A stretch of DNA of 64,000 nt from Lysobacteraceae bacterium (GTDB taxonomy: Bacteria; Pseudomonadota; Gammaproteobacteria; Xanthomonadales; Xanthomonadaceae), in the NCBI GenBank assembly GCA_024508915.1, contig JANINR010000146.1, positions 30,018 through 94,017 of the forward strand, given 5' to 3'. Under the pieces are notes generated by a model. That model made no database searches. It saw only the letters and a list, made by a program, of their open reading frames with translations, and was not told the DNA's origin. Of the stretch, positions 19,874 through 35,724 are shown in pieces. The stretch's first letter is position 1. Every line of letters starts with the position of its first letter. The translations under genes and the position numbers were made by a program.

Positions 19874-21226
19874 ATGATCCGGGCCGCCCGTCCCCCTCCC
19901 CCGGAACCGCGCTTGCTGCAGCTCCTGGTCGTCCTGGTCCTGATCCTGTGCAACGGCTTCTTCGCCATGTCGGAGATGGCCGTCCTCACCTCGCGCAAGA
20001 GCCGGTTGCGGCAGATGGCCGAGCGCAGCCGGCGCGCCCGCAAGGCCCTCTGGCTGGCCGAGCATCCGGAGGGGTTCCTGTCCGCGGTCCAGCTGTGGAT
20101 CACCCTGCTGGGCCTGGTCGTGGGCTACTTCGGCGGCGAGTCGATGGGCGGCCGCCTGGCCGAGCCCTTGCGGGACATCGCATGGCTCGCGCCCTACGCC
20201 GAGCACATCGGGTTCGTGGCCGGCTTCGTGGTGATGCTGTTCCTGTTCGGGCTGGTCGGCGAACTGGTGCCCAAGCGCATCGGCACCCTGCGCCCCGAGG
20301 TGATCGCGACGGCGGTCGCCTACCCGATGGACTTCTTCGCCAAGGTCGCGAAGCCGCTGGTGGTGCTGCTGGCCGCCTGCACCCGGCTGACGATGCGCCT
20401 GCTGGGGCTGCACGACACCAGCGGCGGCGCCGTCACCGAGGAGGAGATCCGCATGCTGGTGGCCGAAGGCCACGAGCAGGGCGTGCTCGACGCCGACGAG
20501 CGCAACATGATGCAGCGCGTGATGCGCCTCGGCGACCGCACCGCCGACAGCCTGATGACGCCGCGCGTGCGCATCGCCTGGCTCGACGCGGCCGCCAGCC
20601 TCGAGGAGAACCTGGCGGCGATGCGCGAGACGCCCTACTCGCGTTATCCCGTGTACCGCGGCAGCGACTCCGACGTGCTCGGCGTGCTCGAGGTGAAGAC
20701 GCTGCTGGACGAGCTCGACCAGCGCACGCCCAACCTGTTCGCGAACCTGCGCCCGGCCGTGTACGTCTCGGAATCGACGCACGCGCTCAAGCTGCTCGAG
20801 ATCTTCCGCGAGGAACAGCAGTCGCTGGCGCTCGTGGTGGACGAGTACGGCGACGTCGCCGGCATGGTGACGCTCAACGACCTGATGGGCGCGGTCATCG
20901 GCCGCGTGCAGTCCGGCGAGGGCCACGACGCCGAAGCCCTGGTGGTCGAGCGCGAGGACGGTTCGCTGCTGGTGGACGGCTCGCTGCCGGTGGACGACCT
21001 GCGCGAGCTGATCGGCGGGGGCGGCCTGCCGGAAGAGGACGAGCACGATTACCACACGGCCGCCGGCATGGTGATCGCGCGCTTCAGCCGCATCCCGAAC
21101 GCCGGCGAGCACTTCGACTGGGCAGGCTGGCGCATCGAGGTGGTCGACCTGGACGGGCCGCGCATCGACAAGCTGCTGATGCAGCGCCTACCCGACCTCG
21201 AAGGCGGCGGCGACGCCGATGAGTGA
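19874..21226 (+). CDS. Hemolysin-family (CNNM/CBS/CorC) membrane protein
   Basis: NGFFAMSEMAVLTSRKSRLRQMAE...; CBS pair; C-terminal transporter-associated domain. Confidence 0.92.
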   Translation: MIRAARPPPPEPRLLQLLVVLVLILCNGFFAMSEMAVLTSRKSRLRQMAERSRRARKALWLAEHPEGFLSAVQLWITLLGLVVGYFGGESMGGRLAEPLRDIAWLAPYAEHIGFVAGFVVMLFLFGLVGELVPKRIGTLRPEVIATAVAYPMDFFAKVAKPLVVLLAACTRLTMRLLGLHDTSGGAVTEEEIRMLVAEGHEQGVLDADERNMMQRVMRLGDRTADSLMTPRVRIAWLDAAASLEENLAAMRETPYSRYPVYRGSDSDVLGVLEVKTLLDELDQRTPNLFANLRPAVYVSESTHALKLLEIFREEQQSLALVVDEYGDVAGMVTLNDLMGAVIGRVQSGEGHDAEALVVEREDGSLLVDGSLPVDDLRELIGGGGLPEEDEHDYHTAAGMVIARFSRIPNAGEHFDWAGWRIEVVDLDGPRIDKLLMQRLPDLEGGGDADE

Positions 21227-21884
21227 CCGGCCCGGCGAAGGCCGCGGCCCCGCCCCCCGCGGCAGCGACGACGACGGCGACGACGGCCGCAACCTGCGCG
21301 CCCTGCTCGACGCGCTGGTCGCCGGCGAGCCGGGCGACACGCTGCGGCTGCGCGACCTGCTGGCGGGACTCGGACGGCGCTCGTTCGGGATGCTGCTGTT
21401 CGTCGCGACGCTGCCCGCCTTCATCCCGATTCCCATCGGCGGCGCGATCAGCGGGCCGCTGGTGGTGCTGATCGGGCTGCAACTGCTCGCCGGCCGGCGC
21501 GAGCCCTGGCTGCCGCGCTTCGCCGCCGAACGCGGCCCGCATCGCCACGCGCTGGCGCGCTTCGACCGCCTCGTCTCGCCATGGCTCGCGCGCCTGGAGC
21601 GCGTCGTGCGCCCGCGCCTGCCGGAACTGCTGCACCATCCTGCCGCCGCCGCGCTGACCGGGCTGCTGCTGGTGATGCTCGGCCTGCTGCTGTCGCTGCC
21701 GATCCCGTTCACCAACTACCTGTTCGGGATCCTGCTGCTCCTGTTCGCGCTGGCCTTGCTCGAGCGCGATGGCGCGCTCATGGCGGTCGCGTGGATCGCC
21801 GGCGGGGCCTGCGTGGGCGTGTTCGGCCTGCTGTCGGGCCACTTCGTCGCGATGGCCGCGCACGGCATCGACCTGCTGATCTAG
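21219..21884 (+). CDS. Exopolysaccharide synthesis ExoD-family protein
   Basis: GRRSFGMLLFVATLPAFIPIPIGG...[26 protein letters not shown]. Confidence 0.88.
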   Translation: MSDRPGEGRGPAPRGSDDDGDDGRNLRALLDALVAGEPGDTLRLRDLLAGLGRRSFGMLLFVATLPAFIPIPIGGAISGPLVVLIGLQLLAGRREPWLPRFAAERGPHRHALARFDRLVSPWLARLERVVRPRLPELLHHPAAAALTGLLLVMLGLLLSLPIPFTNYLFGILLLLFALALLERDGALMAVAWIAGGACVGVFGLLSGHFVAMAAHGIDLLI

Positions 21885-21902: not shown

Positions 21903-21937
21903 AAAGAAAAACCCGGCCCCATGGGGAGCCGGGTGTT
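21903..21937 (-). terminator. Intrinsic terminator, minus strand
   Basis: Minus strand ACACCCGGCTCCCCATGGGGCCGGGTTTTTCTTT. Confidence 0.8.
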
Positions 21938-22203
21938 TCCGAATGCCGGAATGTCGTACCGGCCCTGCCTTGTGTCCGCGTGGCTTCCGTGCCGCGGCAT
22001 CCTGCCCATGCGTCCCTGCCCTGCTTCCCTGCCGCAGGCCGGCCTTCAATCGCGTTGAGGTGGTACCCCGAATGGCCGCCTCTCGACGGCCCGCGTCCAT
22101 GCCTGTGTCCGGGCGTTCTCTCCGGACGCCTTCGGTGCGGCGGGCCGTCCCTGCGAGCCGCCGTTGCCCCCGCAGCGGCCGAGTGGGCGGCGCGTTGCGA
22201 CAT
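21903..22203 (-). ncRNA. Candidate sRNA with multiple GGA-bearing hairpins (Csr/Rsm-antagonist-like)
   Basis: Minus-strand TTGACA-N18-TAATGT at 22238-22209, terminator at 21904-21937, ten GGA motifs between, several in predicted loops including CCGCGGC-ACGGAA-GC-CA-CGCGG. Confidence 0.5.
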
Positions 22204-22208
22204 CGGTC

Positions 22209-22238
22209 ACATTACCGGCGCGGTTTCGCCGCTGTCAA
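22209..22238 (-). promoter_or_regulatory. Candidate sigma70 promoter of the sRNA
   Basis: TTGACA (22238-22233), 18-bp spacer, TAATGT (22214-22209). Confidence 0.55.
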
Positions 22239-22309
22239 ACGCCGGAAACGGTGACAAGCGGTGTAACCGTTTCCGACATGGCGCCGGCGCGCATCGGCGA
22301 ATCGCGTCG

Positions 22310-22720
22310 CTACCAGCAGGCGGCGACGTCGTTCGCGCCCTTCGTGCCCGTATTGTCGATCGAGAGCGTGCCGCACTTCGAATCGTCCTGGGACGCGTTC
22401 GGCACGGCCTGGATCGTGAACGTGTCCGTGTCCGGCGTTCCGTCGAACGCCACGGCGTAATGGTCGGTGACGTCCGCGTCGCAATCCGGGAGCACGGCGC
22501 CTTCATAGCTGAAGTTCTTGGTGTAGTAGCGCTCCATGAACTGGGCGCCGCTGGCCAGGCAGGCCTTGGCCGCGCCCCGCCGCGCCTTGACGGTCGCGAA
22601 GTCGTAGCTGGCGACCGCGATCGCGACGAGGATCGCCACGACGGTGACCGCCATCATCAACTCGATCAGGGTGAAGCCGGCCGCGTGCCTGCGGCCGGGG
22701 GCAACGGTCTTTCCACGCAT
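22310..22720 (-). CDS. pilE: Type IV pilin PilE
   Basis: MRGKTVAPGRRHAAGFTLIELMMAVTVVAILVAIAVASY; C-terminal CGTLSIDNTGTKGANDVAACW. Confidence 0.92.
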   Translation of the reverse strand: MRGKTVAPGRRHAAGFTLIELMMAVTVVAILVAIAVASYDFATVKARRGAAKACLASGAQFMERYYTKNFSYEGAVLPDCDADVTDHYAVAFDGTPDTDTFTIQAVPNASQDDSKCGTLSIDNTGTKGANDVAACW

Positions 22721-22722
22721 CG

Positions 22723-25700
22723 TCAATCCCTCATGATTTCGCGCCACGAAATGCGGCGTGCAGACCCGCCCTGCGGATTCATCACCACGGAACCCAGCGT
22801 ACCCTTCGAACCGCCGACCACGAGCAGCTTGTCGATCAGCGTCGGCAGGGTCGGCATGCCCACGCCCAGGTCGATCGAGCCGACGGGCACCACCGTGCCG
22901 TCGGCGGCGGTGACGACGTCGTCCCCGTCGACCTTGCCGTCGCCGTTGCTGTCGAAATACGCGCTGCCCAGGCTCGTGCCCGTGAACGGGTCGATCGCGT
23001 TGACGTAACCGGTGCCGCCCGCGTCGCAGGTGTTCTCCTGCGGCGGGATCATGCTCGCGAACAGCAGCACGGCGCCGCGGACGCGCGGATTGCTGACGAC
23101 GCGCTCGCCTGCGGTCGGATTGTCGAGGTCGACGTACCAGCCGCGCTTCCCGGACGCGAGCGTGCTCGCGGACTCGAATCCGCGCACGTCGTTGCCGTCC
23201 TGCGTCTTCGCCACGATGATCGAGCGCTCGACCAGGTCGGTGCGGCCGCTGATCGCGCCTGCGTCGTCGATGAGGCCGTACATCGACTGCACGTCGTCGT
23301 TGCTGACGTCCGCGGAGGTCATGAAGCTGCCGGTGCCGGCGAACACCCAGATCTTGGAGGTCGCGGGGTCGCGCGCGATGGCGAGGCCGGCCGTGATCGG
23401 CTGCGCCTTGCCGCCCGCGTCCTTGGCCGTGAAGAAGGGCGAGCCGGAGAACGCGATGTTCCAGGTGCTGCTGTCGGTCGCGTGCAGGTCGAACTTCCAG
23501 ATGTTGCCCTTCAGGTCGCCCGCGTACACGTAGTCGACGTCGCCGTCGCCGTCCGTGTCCGCGCCGCGCGGCGCCGACAGGCCGTTGTCGCTGCCGATGC
23601 CGGTATCGAGCTGGCGGATGACGCTGCCGTCCGCGAGGTTGAGGATGAACAGCACCGCATGGCCGTTGGGGCTGTTGATGCCGTTGCTGACGATGGCGGC
23701 CTGGATCTTGTCGCCGTCGGCATCGAGGGCGTTCAACGTGACCACCAGCGGTTCGCCCAGCACCTGGCCCATGTCGTTGCCGAGCGCGCTGCCGGTCTTG
23801 TCCCAGAGGACGCTGGCTGCGGAGAACGCCGCCGGCGTGGTGACGTCCAGCGAATAGATGCCGCGCCCGCCGCGGCCGAGCGTGCCGAGCAGGTAGTTCT
23901 TGCCCGGCGTCTGGCTAGTGCTGGAGACGACCACCGGGCCGTCGACGAAATACTGGTGGTTCGGGCTGTACTGCGGGTCGCTGAGGTTGCCCAGCTGGCC
24001 GAAGTCCAGGCCGGCCGGCACGTAGGCGAACAGCTCGGCGCCGGTCAGCGCGTTGAAGCCGTGGAGCATGCCGTCGTTGGCGCCGACGTAGATCGTCTCG
24101 CTCTCCTTCACGTACATCGGCGAGGAGTTCGCGATGTCGCCGAGCAGCGAGTCGCGGTCGCGCAGTTTGCCACCGTTCGCGATTTCCAGCGCGCGGGAAC
24201 CGGAGAGGTACGCCGCGTTCTGGTCGCCGGTGGTGGCGCCGCCGCTGATGTCCGGGCGCGACGGCTTGGCCAGCGCGGTGGACTGCGCCGACGTCGGGAA
24301 CGTGGTGCCGTTGGTGCCGGACCAGGTGAAGACCTTGCGCGTCCCGTACGCCGGGATGTGCTGGGACGCCTTCCACGCGGCATCCGGCACGCCGTCGCCG
24401 TCGGCGTCGACCGTCGAGATGCCGGCCGCGCTCACTTCGTACGCGGCGAGTTCGCCGGTCCACTTGCCCGACACGTAGCTCGCCTGGTACACGCGGGTGT
24501 CGGTCTGGAACGAGGTGCTGTTCGCGGTCACGTTGGACGCGGAGCCCAGGCGTTGCGCGACGGTGGCGAGCGCGTCGATCAGGCCCTGCACGAATTCGGC
24601 CGGGTTGGTCGCGGTGACGAAGTTGCCGTGGCCGTTGACGGAGGCGTGCCAGAGGTCGTCGATGCGGTCGAGGTCCTCGGTGTCGGTCGGATCCGGCCAG
24701 TTCTTGCTGCCGTTGGTGATCGACTGCAGGTCCGTCTTCGGGTTGAGGCGGCCCTGCTGGCCGATGGAGACGCCGAAGGTCACCATGTGCTGCCAGAACG
24801 CGGGGTCCGCGGTCGATGTCGGCACGTCGTTGGCGAGCGCGGTGACGAGGTCGCGCTTCCAGAAGTAGTTGGCGACGTCGGCGAGCGTGTTGCCCTTCGA
24901 GAAAAGCGTGTTGCCCGACTTGAAGTTGTCCTTGTACGGCGTGACCGGCTTGTACTGCAGGCTGGACTTGCCGTCCTCGGAGACGATCACGGCGCCATCG
25001 GTCGCGTCGGCGTCGCCGACGGCGCTGTAGCCCTGCGTACTGTTCCAGTAACCGTCGGTGGTGAGGATCGCGAAGTTCTGGCGGCAGCTCAGTTGCGAAT
25101 CGCCCGTGCCCGGCCCCCATGGCCCGTTCGTCCCGGTGTCCTCGAAGTAGCGTCCCGCGCGCTGCAACGCGCCCTGCAGGGGCGTGCCGTTGTAGCCGCG
25201 CGCGCCCTGCAGCTGGGTGAACCAGTTGCTGCGGTTGGTGCCGCGGAACAGGCCGCCGTCCGAGCCGACCGGCACCTTGTACGCCGGGCTCGCGGAGGTC
25301 GAGACCGAACTGGTGAAGTAGCCGGAAGTCGTGCTGTCGCGGTTCCAGATGGAGTCGTAGCCGACGCGGATGCTGGAGCCGAGCTGGCCGAAGGCCTCGC
25401 TGGCGCCGGATTTCGCGACCTTGATGCGGCTGCGATGGTAGGAGAACCAGGTCGCGTAGTTGGTCTGCTCGTCGGCCTCGGACCGGCCGGTCGGCGTGGT
25501 GAAGCTGCAGTTGCGCCAGCCGTTGCCGGACGTGCTCGTGCTGCAGCCGGCGTTGGCGACGCCGGTGCGCGTGTCGGTGCCCGAGATCGAGGCGGTGATC
25601 GAGACGTTGCTGTAGTTGCTGGCGGCGAGCAGCCGGATCTCGTAGGTGCCGGCCGCGGGCGAGTTCTTGGAGCAGCTGCGGTTGTTGCCGTTCTGGGTGT

Positions 25701-34330: not shown

Positions 34331-34936
34331 TTACCCCGCGACGCCCTGGCCCAGCCCCAGGTAGGTCGCCAGCCCGTCGAGGAACATCTGCACCGAAATG
34401 GCGACGATCACCATGCCCATGAGCCGCTCGATCGCGGTCAGGACACGGCCGCCGAGGATCTTGTAGAGGTAGGTCGCCGAGAACAGGATCGCGGCCGTCG
34501 CGACCCAGGCGATGAGCAGGGCCAGGCTCCACGCTCCCATCCGCCCGGGCTCCTGGCTGCCCATCAGCATGACCGCCGCCATGCCGGACGGGCCCGCCAC
34601 CAGCGGGATCGCCATCGGCACGATGAATGGCTCGCCGCCGGGCAGTTCGCCCATCAGGCCTTCCGGCGGCGGGAAGATCATCCGCAGGCCGATCAGGAAC
34701 AGGACGATGCCCCCGGCGATGGACACCGATTCCTGCCGCAGGTGCATCAGGTCGAGCGCGTAGCGGCCGAAATGCAGGAACACCATCAGCACGCCGAGCG
34801 CGATCAGCATCTCGCGCACCAGCACGACGCGCTGGCGGTGCGCGGGCATGCCGCGCAGCAGGCTGAGGAACACCGGGATGTTCCCGAGCGGGTCGAGGAT
34901 GAGGAACAGCAGCAGCGCGGCGGAGGCGATCGTCAC
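34331..34936 (-). CDS. MarC family membrane protein
   Basis: FLILDPLGNIPVFLSLLRG...FPPPEGLMGELPGGEPFIVPMAIPLVAGPSGMAAVML; GTG start. Confidence 0.92.
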   Translation of the reverse strand: MTIASAALLLFLILDPLGNIPVFLSLLRGMPAHRQRVVLVREMLIALGVLMVFLHFGRYALDLMHLRQESVSIAGGIVLFLIGLRMIFPPPEGLMGELPGGEPFIVPMAIPLVAGPSGMAAVMLMGSQEPGRMGAWSLALLIAWVATAAILFSATYLYKILGGRVLTAIERLMGMVIVAISVQMFLDGLATYLGLGQGVAG

Positions 34937-35724
34937 GGGCGCGGGGCCGCGCGGACGGGCGAGGCCGCGTCGGCGGCGACGAGGATCCGGCCGCGGTAAG
35001 GGCTGCCGGCCGGCGACAGCAGCTCGACGCAGGCACCCGCGTAGGCGGACGGGTCGCGCGCGTCGCGGTCCTGGTCGGCCAGGAAGGCCCGCCCGCGCAG
35101 CGTCGTCCGCATCGGGCCGGGCTGCAGGCCGCTGATGCGCGGTCCGTCCGCGCCGAGTTCGGCCTGCAGCATCCCGATGAGCGTCGCCAGGCCGTGCTGG
35201 GCGATGCCGTAGCCGCCCCAGAAGGCCTGCCCGGTCAGGGCCAGGTCGTCGATCGCGAACACCACGGCGGCGTCCCGCGCCTTCGACAGCAAGGGCAGGC
35301 AGGCCTGCGTCAGCCACCAGCGCGCCGTCAGTCCGACGTGCAGCGCGCGGGCGAAGTCGGCGGGATCGGTGTGCGCCAGCGGCGTCAGGCCTCGGAACTC
35401 GGCGGCGCAGTGCAGCAGGCCGTCGAGGCGCCCGGATTCGGTCTCGAGGCGCGCCCCGAGTTCCGCGTAGTCGTCGGGCGAGGCGCCTTCCAGGTCGAGC
35501 GGATACAGCAGCGGCTCCGGACCCTCGGCGGCGAGCGCGTCGTAGAGCCGGTTGAGCTTCGGCACCTTGCGGCCCAGCAGCACGACGGTGGCGCCGGCCC
35601 GCGCACAGGCCAGCGATGCGGCCGCGCCGAGCCCGCCGTGCGCGCCCGCCACGAGCACCACGCGGCCGGCGAGCGCCGCCGCAGGCTGCGCCGCCGGCGC
35701 GCCGTGGGACGCGGCCGCGCTCAC
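34933..35724 (-). CDS. SDR family NAD(P)-dependent oxidoreductase
   Basis: GRVVLVAGAHGGLGAAASLACARAGATVVLLGR; YGIAQHG region; overlaps grxD stop. Confidence 0.88.
   Translation of the reverse strand: MSAAASHGAPAAQPAAALAGRVVLVAGAHGGLGAAASLACARAGATVVLLGRKVPKLNRLYDALAAEGPEPLLYPLDLEGASPDDYAELGARLETESGRLDGLLHCAAEFRGLTPLAHTDPADFARALHVGLTARWWLTQACLPLLSKARDAAVVFAIDDLALTGQAFWGGYGIAQHGLATLIGMLQAELGADGPRISGLQPGPMRTTLRGRAFLADQDRDARDPSAYAGACVELLSPAGSPYRGRILVAADAASPVRAAPRP

Follow-up and report, generated by a model that had tools for sequence, protein, structure and literature searches.

Known sponge RNAs and a candidate RNA gene between pilE and exoD

CsrB/CsrC and RsmX/RsmY/RsmZ are sponge RNAs under the control of BarA/UvrY in enterobacteria or GacS/GacA in pseudomonads, and the upstream site of the GacA type has the form TGTAAG-N6-CTTACA. 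In Xanthomonas, no CsrB- or RsmZ-type RNA has been found, though RsmA is present (PMC7694677). The sole RNA of the group proven to sequester RsmA, by EMSA and Co-IP, is RsmU (sRX061), which lies in the 3′UTR of comEA in X. campestris pv. campestris and which, on the basis of BLAST, has been held to be confined to Xanthomonas (PMC7694677). Neither its binding of RsmA nor its function was abolished when the four GGAs predicted in it were altered (PMC7694677), so that GGA content is an imperfect predictor.

In the window (the whole stretch of DNA analyzed here, 64 kb), a 425-bp gap separates pilE from exoD. On the minus strand of this gap lies a candidate small RNA gene of approximately 300 nt (21904–22203), whose promoter and terminator are kept in four genomes and whose hairpins covary. 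Its upstream neighbor, on the same strand, encodes a pilE-like minor pilin (22310–22747, minus strand; Pfam domains N_methyl and ComP_DUS), and an exoD-family gene (21219–21884, plus strand) converges on it. The original prediction had called the RNA divergent, which was wrong because the gene shares the strand of pilE, and had interpreted it as an RsmA sponge, for which we found support in the covarying RNA, its exposed GGAs and mini-hairpins, the link to RsmU loci, and a distribution complementary to that of RsmU. We consider it probable that the gene encodes an independently transcribed RsmA sponge, which would stand in place of RsmU in this branch of the genus. As far as the sequences tell, it would be a new RNA family inside a known functional class, the CsrA/RsmA-sequestering sRNAs.

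The same RNA was found in three congeners (G003, G006, and G001, with G000 being the genome of the window), where it was convergent to exoD every time, and the carriers share a conserved promoter and terminator as well as conserved portions of the 5′ half. When the 5′ domain was turned into a covariance model, scores were 84–107 bits in the four carriers and did not exceed 28 bits elsewhere (all nine genus genomes and 199 family genomes), the top scores elsewhere including 27.9 bits in G008. Apart from this G008 match, those of 20–28 bits outside the carriers were set aside, because no such promoter was present nearby and the gap in score was wide. An exact-pattern scan of GTDB genomes yielded 38 matches, just two of which were true relatives, and where BLAST weakly matched the 3′ end of the RNA in other congeners, the sequences proved to be generic terminators located after cspA-like or transporter-like genes. 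In a phylogenetic tree based on pieces of AlaS, ExoD, HutD, and ComEA, the four carriers formed a clade with a support of 100, within which G006 split off first (85) and G000 and G003 were sisters (93). CsrA was encoded in all nine genus genomes, the proteins being 92–94% identical to E. coli CsrA.

Covarying hairpins and exposed GGAs

The four hairpins that had been drawn by hand in the original prediction were all found in the sequence, and the covariation check across relatives that it proposed revealed compensatory changes in two hairpins among the four genomes. In these two hairpins, four pairs were altered on both sides across the four orthologues, and 98% of the cells in the covariation test were paired, compared with at most 48% in slid controls. 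Hairpin 1 (22171–22199, minus strand), which has the C-rich loop CCCACT (CCCWNT in relatives), showed compensatory changes at three pairs. In hairpin 2 (22112–22130, minus strand; GGCGT-CCGGAGAGA-ACGCC), the closing pair varied among U-A, U-G, and C-G, with a GGA in the loop. The 3′ GGA array begins at a further GGA hairpin (22021–22037, minus strand; CTGC-GGCAGGGAA-GCAG), the GGA of which had an unpaired probability of 0.78. Downstream of it are two mini-hairpins of the CsrA type, GGC-AGGAT-GCC (21996–22006, minus strand; unpaired probability 0.84), which is identical in sequence in RsmU-type RNAs, and GGC-ACGGAA-GCC (21982–21993, minus strand; unpaired probability 0.87). The expected conservation of the GGA loops was seen for hairpin 2, where the GGA was kept in all four copies, and for the mini-hairpins, which occurred in three, and it broke down in G001, which lacks the array. 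The fold of the whole molecule was not unusual (z = −0.41) and is hence uninformative.

In terms of GGA number, all ten positions listed earlier were exact, but the accompanying estimate of twice the naive expectation was too generous. The window copy contains 10 GGAs, whereas its composition predicts 8.0 and dinucleotide shuffles give 8.3 (p ~0.2–0.3, not significant), and this count is ordinary because the strand is purine-rich, a bias that the estimate had ignored. Exposure gave a different picture from number: local folding predicted 4.8 accessible GGAs in the window copy versus 2.7 in shuffles, and GGAs were exposed approximately twice as often as in shuffles, with an excess in all four copies. 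Several loop-exposed GGAs above chance were therefore present, the excess being weakest in G001, with its four GGAs. Within the 64-kb window, the GGA exposure of the RNA ranked second among 1,274 segments of 301 nt. The sole segment with slightly more accessible GGAs (4.92) was located at 34701–35001 on the plus strand. Specific motifs were also enriched, namely A(N)GGA in the window copy (5 versus ~1.5, p ~0.014) and, in the three long copies together (G000, G003, and G006), CAGGAYG (7 versus 0.24 expected), the mini-hairpin GGC-A(N)GGAN-GCC (8 versus 0.02 expected), and GGA in total (36 versus 24.8 expected, p = 0.002), although these p-values are indicative only, because the sequences had been inspected before the patterns were picked and the three copies share ancestry.

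The copy in G001 (L032:3530–3735) is shortened, retaining the 5′ structured domain and four GGAs without the array, and this bears on a different reading of the RNA. A structured sRNA with another job, such as one in which the C-rich loop of hairpin 1 pairs with Shine–Dalgarno regions and the GGAs are secondary, would fit the observation that hairpin 1 is the best-covarying part of the molecule and survives in G001, where most of the GGAs are gone; a precedent in its favor is sX13, a base-pairing sRNA of Xanthomonas with C-rich loops. However, such an sRNA leaves unexplained why GGAs are exposed in each of the four copies, as well as the mini-hairpins of the RsmU type and the complementary loss of RsmU described below, and we regard it as unlikely. 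The two roles could coexist in part: the four-GGA copy of G001 means that the RNA may also have a role other than sequestering RsmA, and the 5′ hairpin with the C-rich loop retained there may serve a separate function. The sponge reading is the one that we follow below.

Promoter, terminator, and coding potential

The sequence TTGACA-N18-TAATGT that had been noticed on the minus strand (22238–22233 and 22214–22209) is present and is conserved in the four genomes. Its −35 hexamer, TTGACA (22233–22238, minus strand), was invariant in the four carriers, and its −10 hexamer, TAATGT (22209–22214, minus strand; TAANGTG in relatives), was conserved in all of them, with a spacer of 18 nt. The predicted 5′ end would lie near 22202 on the minus strand, 7 nt past the −10 hexamer. 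This promoter was absent from the list produced by a consensus promoter scan because TAATGT matches just three of the six consensus bases, and we accepted it because of its conservation in the four genomes. At the other end, the stretch of approximately 300 nt terminates, as predicted, in a strong intrinsic terminator (ACCCGGCTCCCCATGGGGCCGGGT + TTTTTCTTT, with a T-run; 21904–21934, minus strand), which was also conserved in the four genomes.

Just upstream of the −35 hexamer is a near-perfect inverted repeat of 31 bp (GGAAACGGTTACACCGCTTGTCACCGTTTCC; 22244–22274, not assigned to a strand), which is a possible operator or activator site. The left part of this repeat, AAnCGnTTnCA, was invariant across the four carrier genomes, suggesting that some regulator probably controls the RNA gene. 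No GacA-type site was seen by eye upstream of the RNA, where this different conserved element is present. The Rfam scan that had been proposed as a check identified no family in the window, related or unrelated, at the gathering score.

The neighborhood of the gene also bears on whether the stretch is merely a long 3′UTR with the terminator of the pilY1-pilE operon. This is very improbable. Although pilE is on the same strand and immediately upstream of the RNA in G000, G003, and G001, the stems covary, and in G006 the upstream neighbor is a divergent fimT-like gene, yet the promoter, the hairpins, and the terminator are all retained. The RNA of G006 therefore cannot be pil read-through and needs its own promoter. 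The predicted adjacency to pilus genes holds in the window, where the RNA adjoins pilE; in G006, pilE is approximately 7 kb distant, although the fimT-like gene adjoins, so that a role specifically in pilus biology would be conjecture. exoD adjoins the RNA in all four carriers. A small protein encoded by the transcript is scarcely credible, since the long open frames that this G+C-rich sequence offers (e.g., 141 amino acids from 22203) cross the terminator, lack a ribosome-binding site, and show no conservation among the orthologues, whereas the substitutions preserve the stems. The earlier judgment that there is no convincing ORF thus agrees with the orthologues, and the locus combines a conserved promoter and terminator with covarying hairpins and no conserved ORF, as in an sRNA gene.

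RsmU-type RNAs at comEA and their complementary distribution

A search for three CAGGAYG motifs within a short span in 397 family genomes returned mostly scattered output, probably chance matches in coding sequence, but six of the nine candidates picked by eye were located directly behind comEA, in three genera. These comEA 3′UTR loci were tied to RsmU by synteny, GGA hairpins, and a terminator. A covariance model of RsmU was constructed from nine comEA 3′UTRs, which contain covarying AGGA-loop hairpins, and under strict filters it matched 55 of 150 family genomes, representing 22 genera. comEA adjoined all 23 of the newly fetched matches that were checked, and further matches among nearer relatives likewise. 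The loci of this type in comEA 3′UTRs comprise L160–L163, L165, L166, L170–L175, L179–L191, and L209–L231. These sequences indicate that putative RsmU-type RNAs are widespread in the family, beyond Xanthomonas. Separately, genomes of genus g6, G013:C1 among them, contained many scattered partial matches of 25–34 bits to the RsmU model, resembling an interspersed repeat family.

In the genus of the window, RsmU was present in six of the nine genomes, with scores of 65–112 bits. Across these nine genomes, neither the RsmU model nor inspection of the locus revealed RsmU behind comEA in G000, G003, or G006. In these three genomes, the next gene follows comEA almost directly on the same contig, indicating that the absence of RsmU is not an assembly gap. 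The genomes without RsmU are exactly those with the long GGA-rich RNA, whereas G001 has RsmU together with the short copy containing four GGAs; this complementarity, based on nine genomes, has a Fisher's p of 0.012 when phylogeny is ignored. The topology of the tree implies that RsmU was lost twice, with the GGA array retained each time, and that the array decayed where RsmU stayed, although the support of the tree is moderate and the losses may represent one or two events.

We are therefore inclined, with some reserve, to see here an unrecognized RNA family within the Xanthomonadaceae: a free-standing sponge that has a promoter of its own displaced the ancestral, mRNA-derived RsmU, while the sister lineage that kept RsmU lost the GGA array, in a reciprocal loss. 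If this is true, RsmA antagonism left the control of comEA, a gene of DNA uptake, and came under a promoter that is regulated separately. One branch would have swapped RsmU for a free-standing sponge, and because close relatives carry the opposite copies, the turnover of sponges is directly testable.

Comparison with known CsrA/RsmA-sequestering RNAs

As a sponge, the RNA would be transcribed independently, from a promoter on which a regulator may act through AAnCGnTTnCA, and the GGA loops of its 3′ half and of hairpin 2 would bind CsrA/RsmA dimers. It would thereby titrate CsrA/RsmA off its mRNAs, releasing the targets, and would have replaced RsmU, the sponge derived from the comEA 3′UTR, in this branch of the genus.

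Like CsrB/CsrC and RsmX/RsmY/RsmZ, the RNA is encoded by a free-standing gene, with GGA loops between hairpins and an intrinsic terminator, and its CAGGAYG repeats resemble the repeats of CsrB. It differs from these RNAs in that sequence homology is undetectable, with none of the Rfam models of CsrB, CsrC, RsmX, RsmY, and RsmZ scoring above the gathering score in the window, and in that no GacA-type site is visible by eye. A match of the G006 copy to rsmX (20.9 bits, cut-off 56) was rejected, as equal or better scores occurred at unrelated sites in every genus genome.

RsmU is the closer counterpart. Both RNAs belong to the same bacterial family, and both contain the mini-hairpin GGC-AGGAY-GCC ahead of a further CAGGGA site, end in an intrinsic terminator, and adjoin a competence or type IV pilus gene. 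The genes concerned, all of DNA uptake or the type IV pilus, are the ComP_DUS minor pilin or the fimT-like gene for the present RNA and comEA for RsmU. In the 64-kb window, the best match of the RsmU model was the 3′ half of the RNA, with a weak score of 15.6 bits (true RsmU, 65–112 bits), and the copies of G003 and G006 gave similarly weak scores of 16.2 and 13.8 bits. In G003, the order of the elements (GGGC-AGGAC-GCCC, GGC-AGGAT-GCC, and CAGGGA) is that of RsmU. The 3′ half could have descended from a copied RsmU that became joined to the 5′ domain of another RNA, or the likeness could reflect convergence. The present RNA is not in a comEA 3′UTR, as it sits between pilE and exoD and comEA is on another contig; besides this different locus and the weak similarity to the RsmU model, it has an extra conserved 5′ domain. 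Finally, RsmU is processed from an mRNA into forms of 117 and 77 nt, whereas the present RNA, of approximately 300 nt, has its own promoter.
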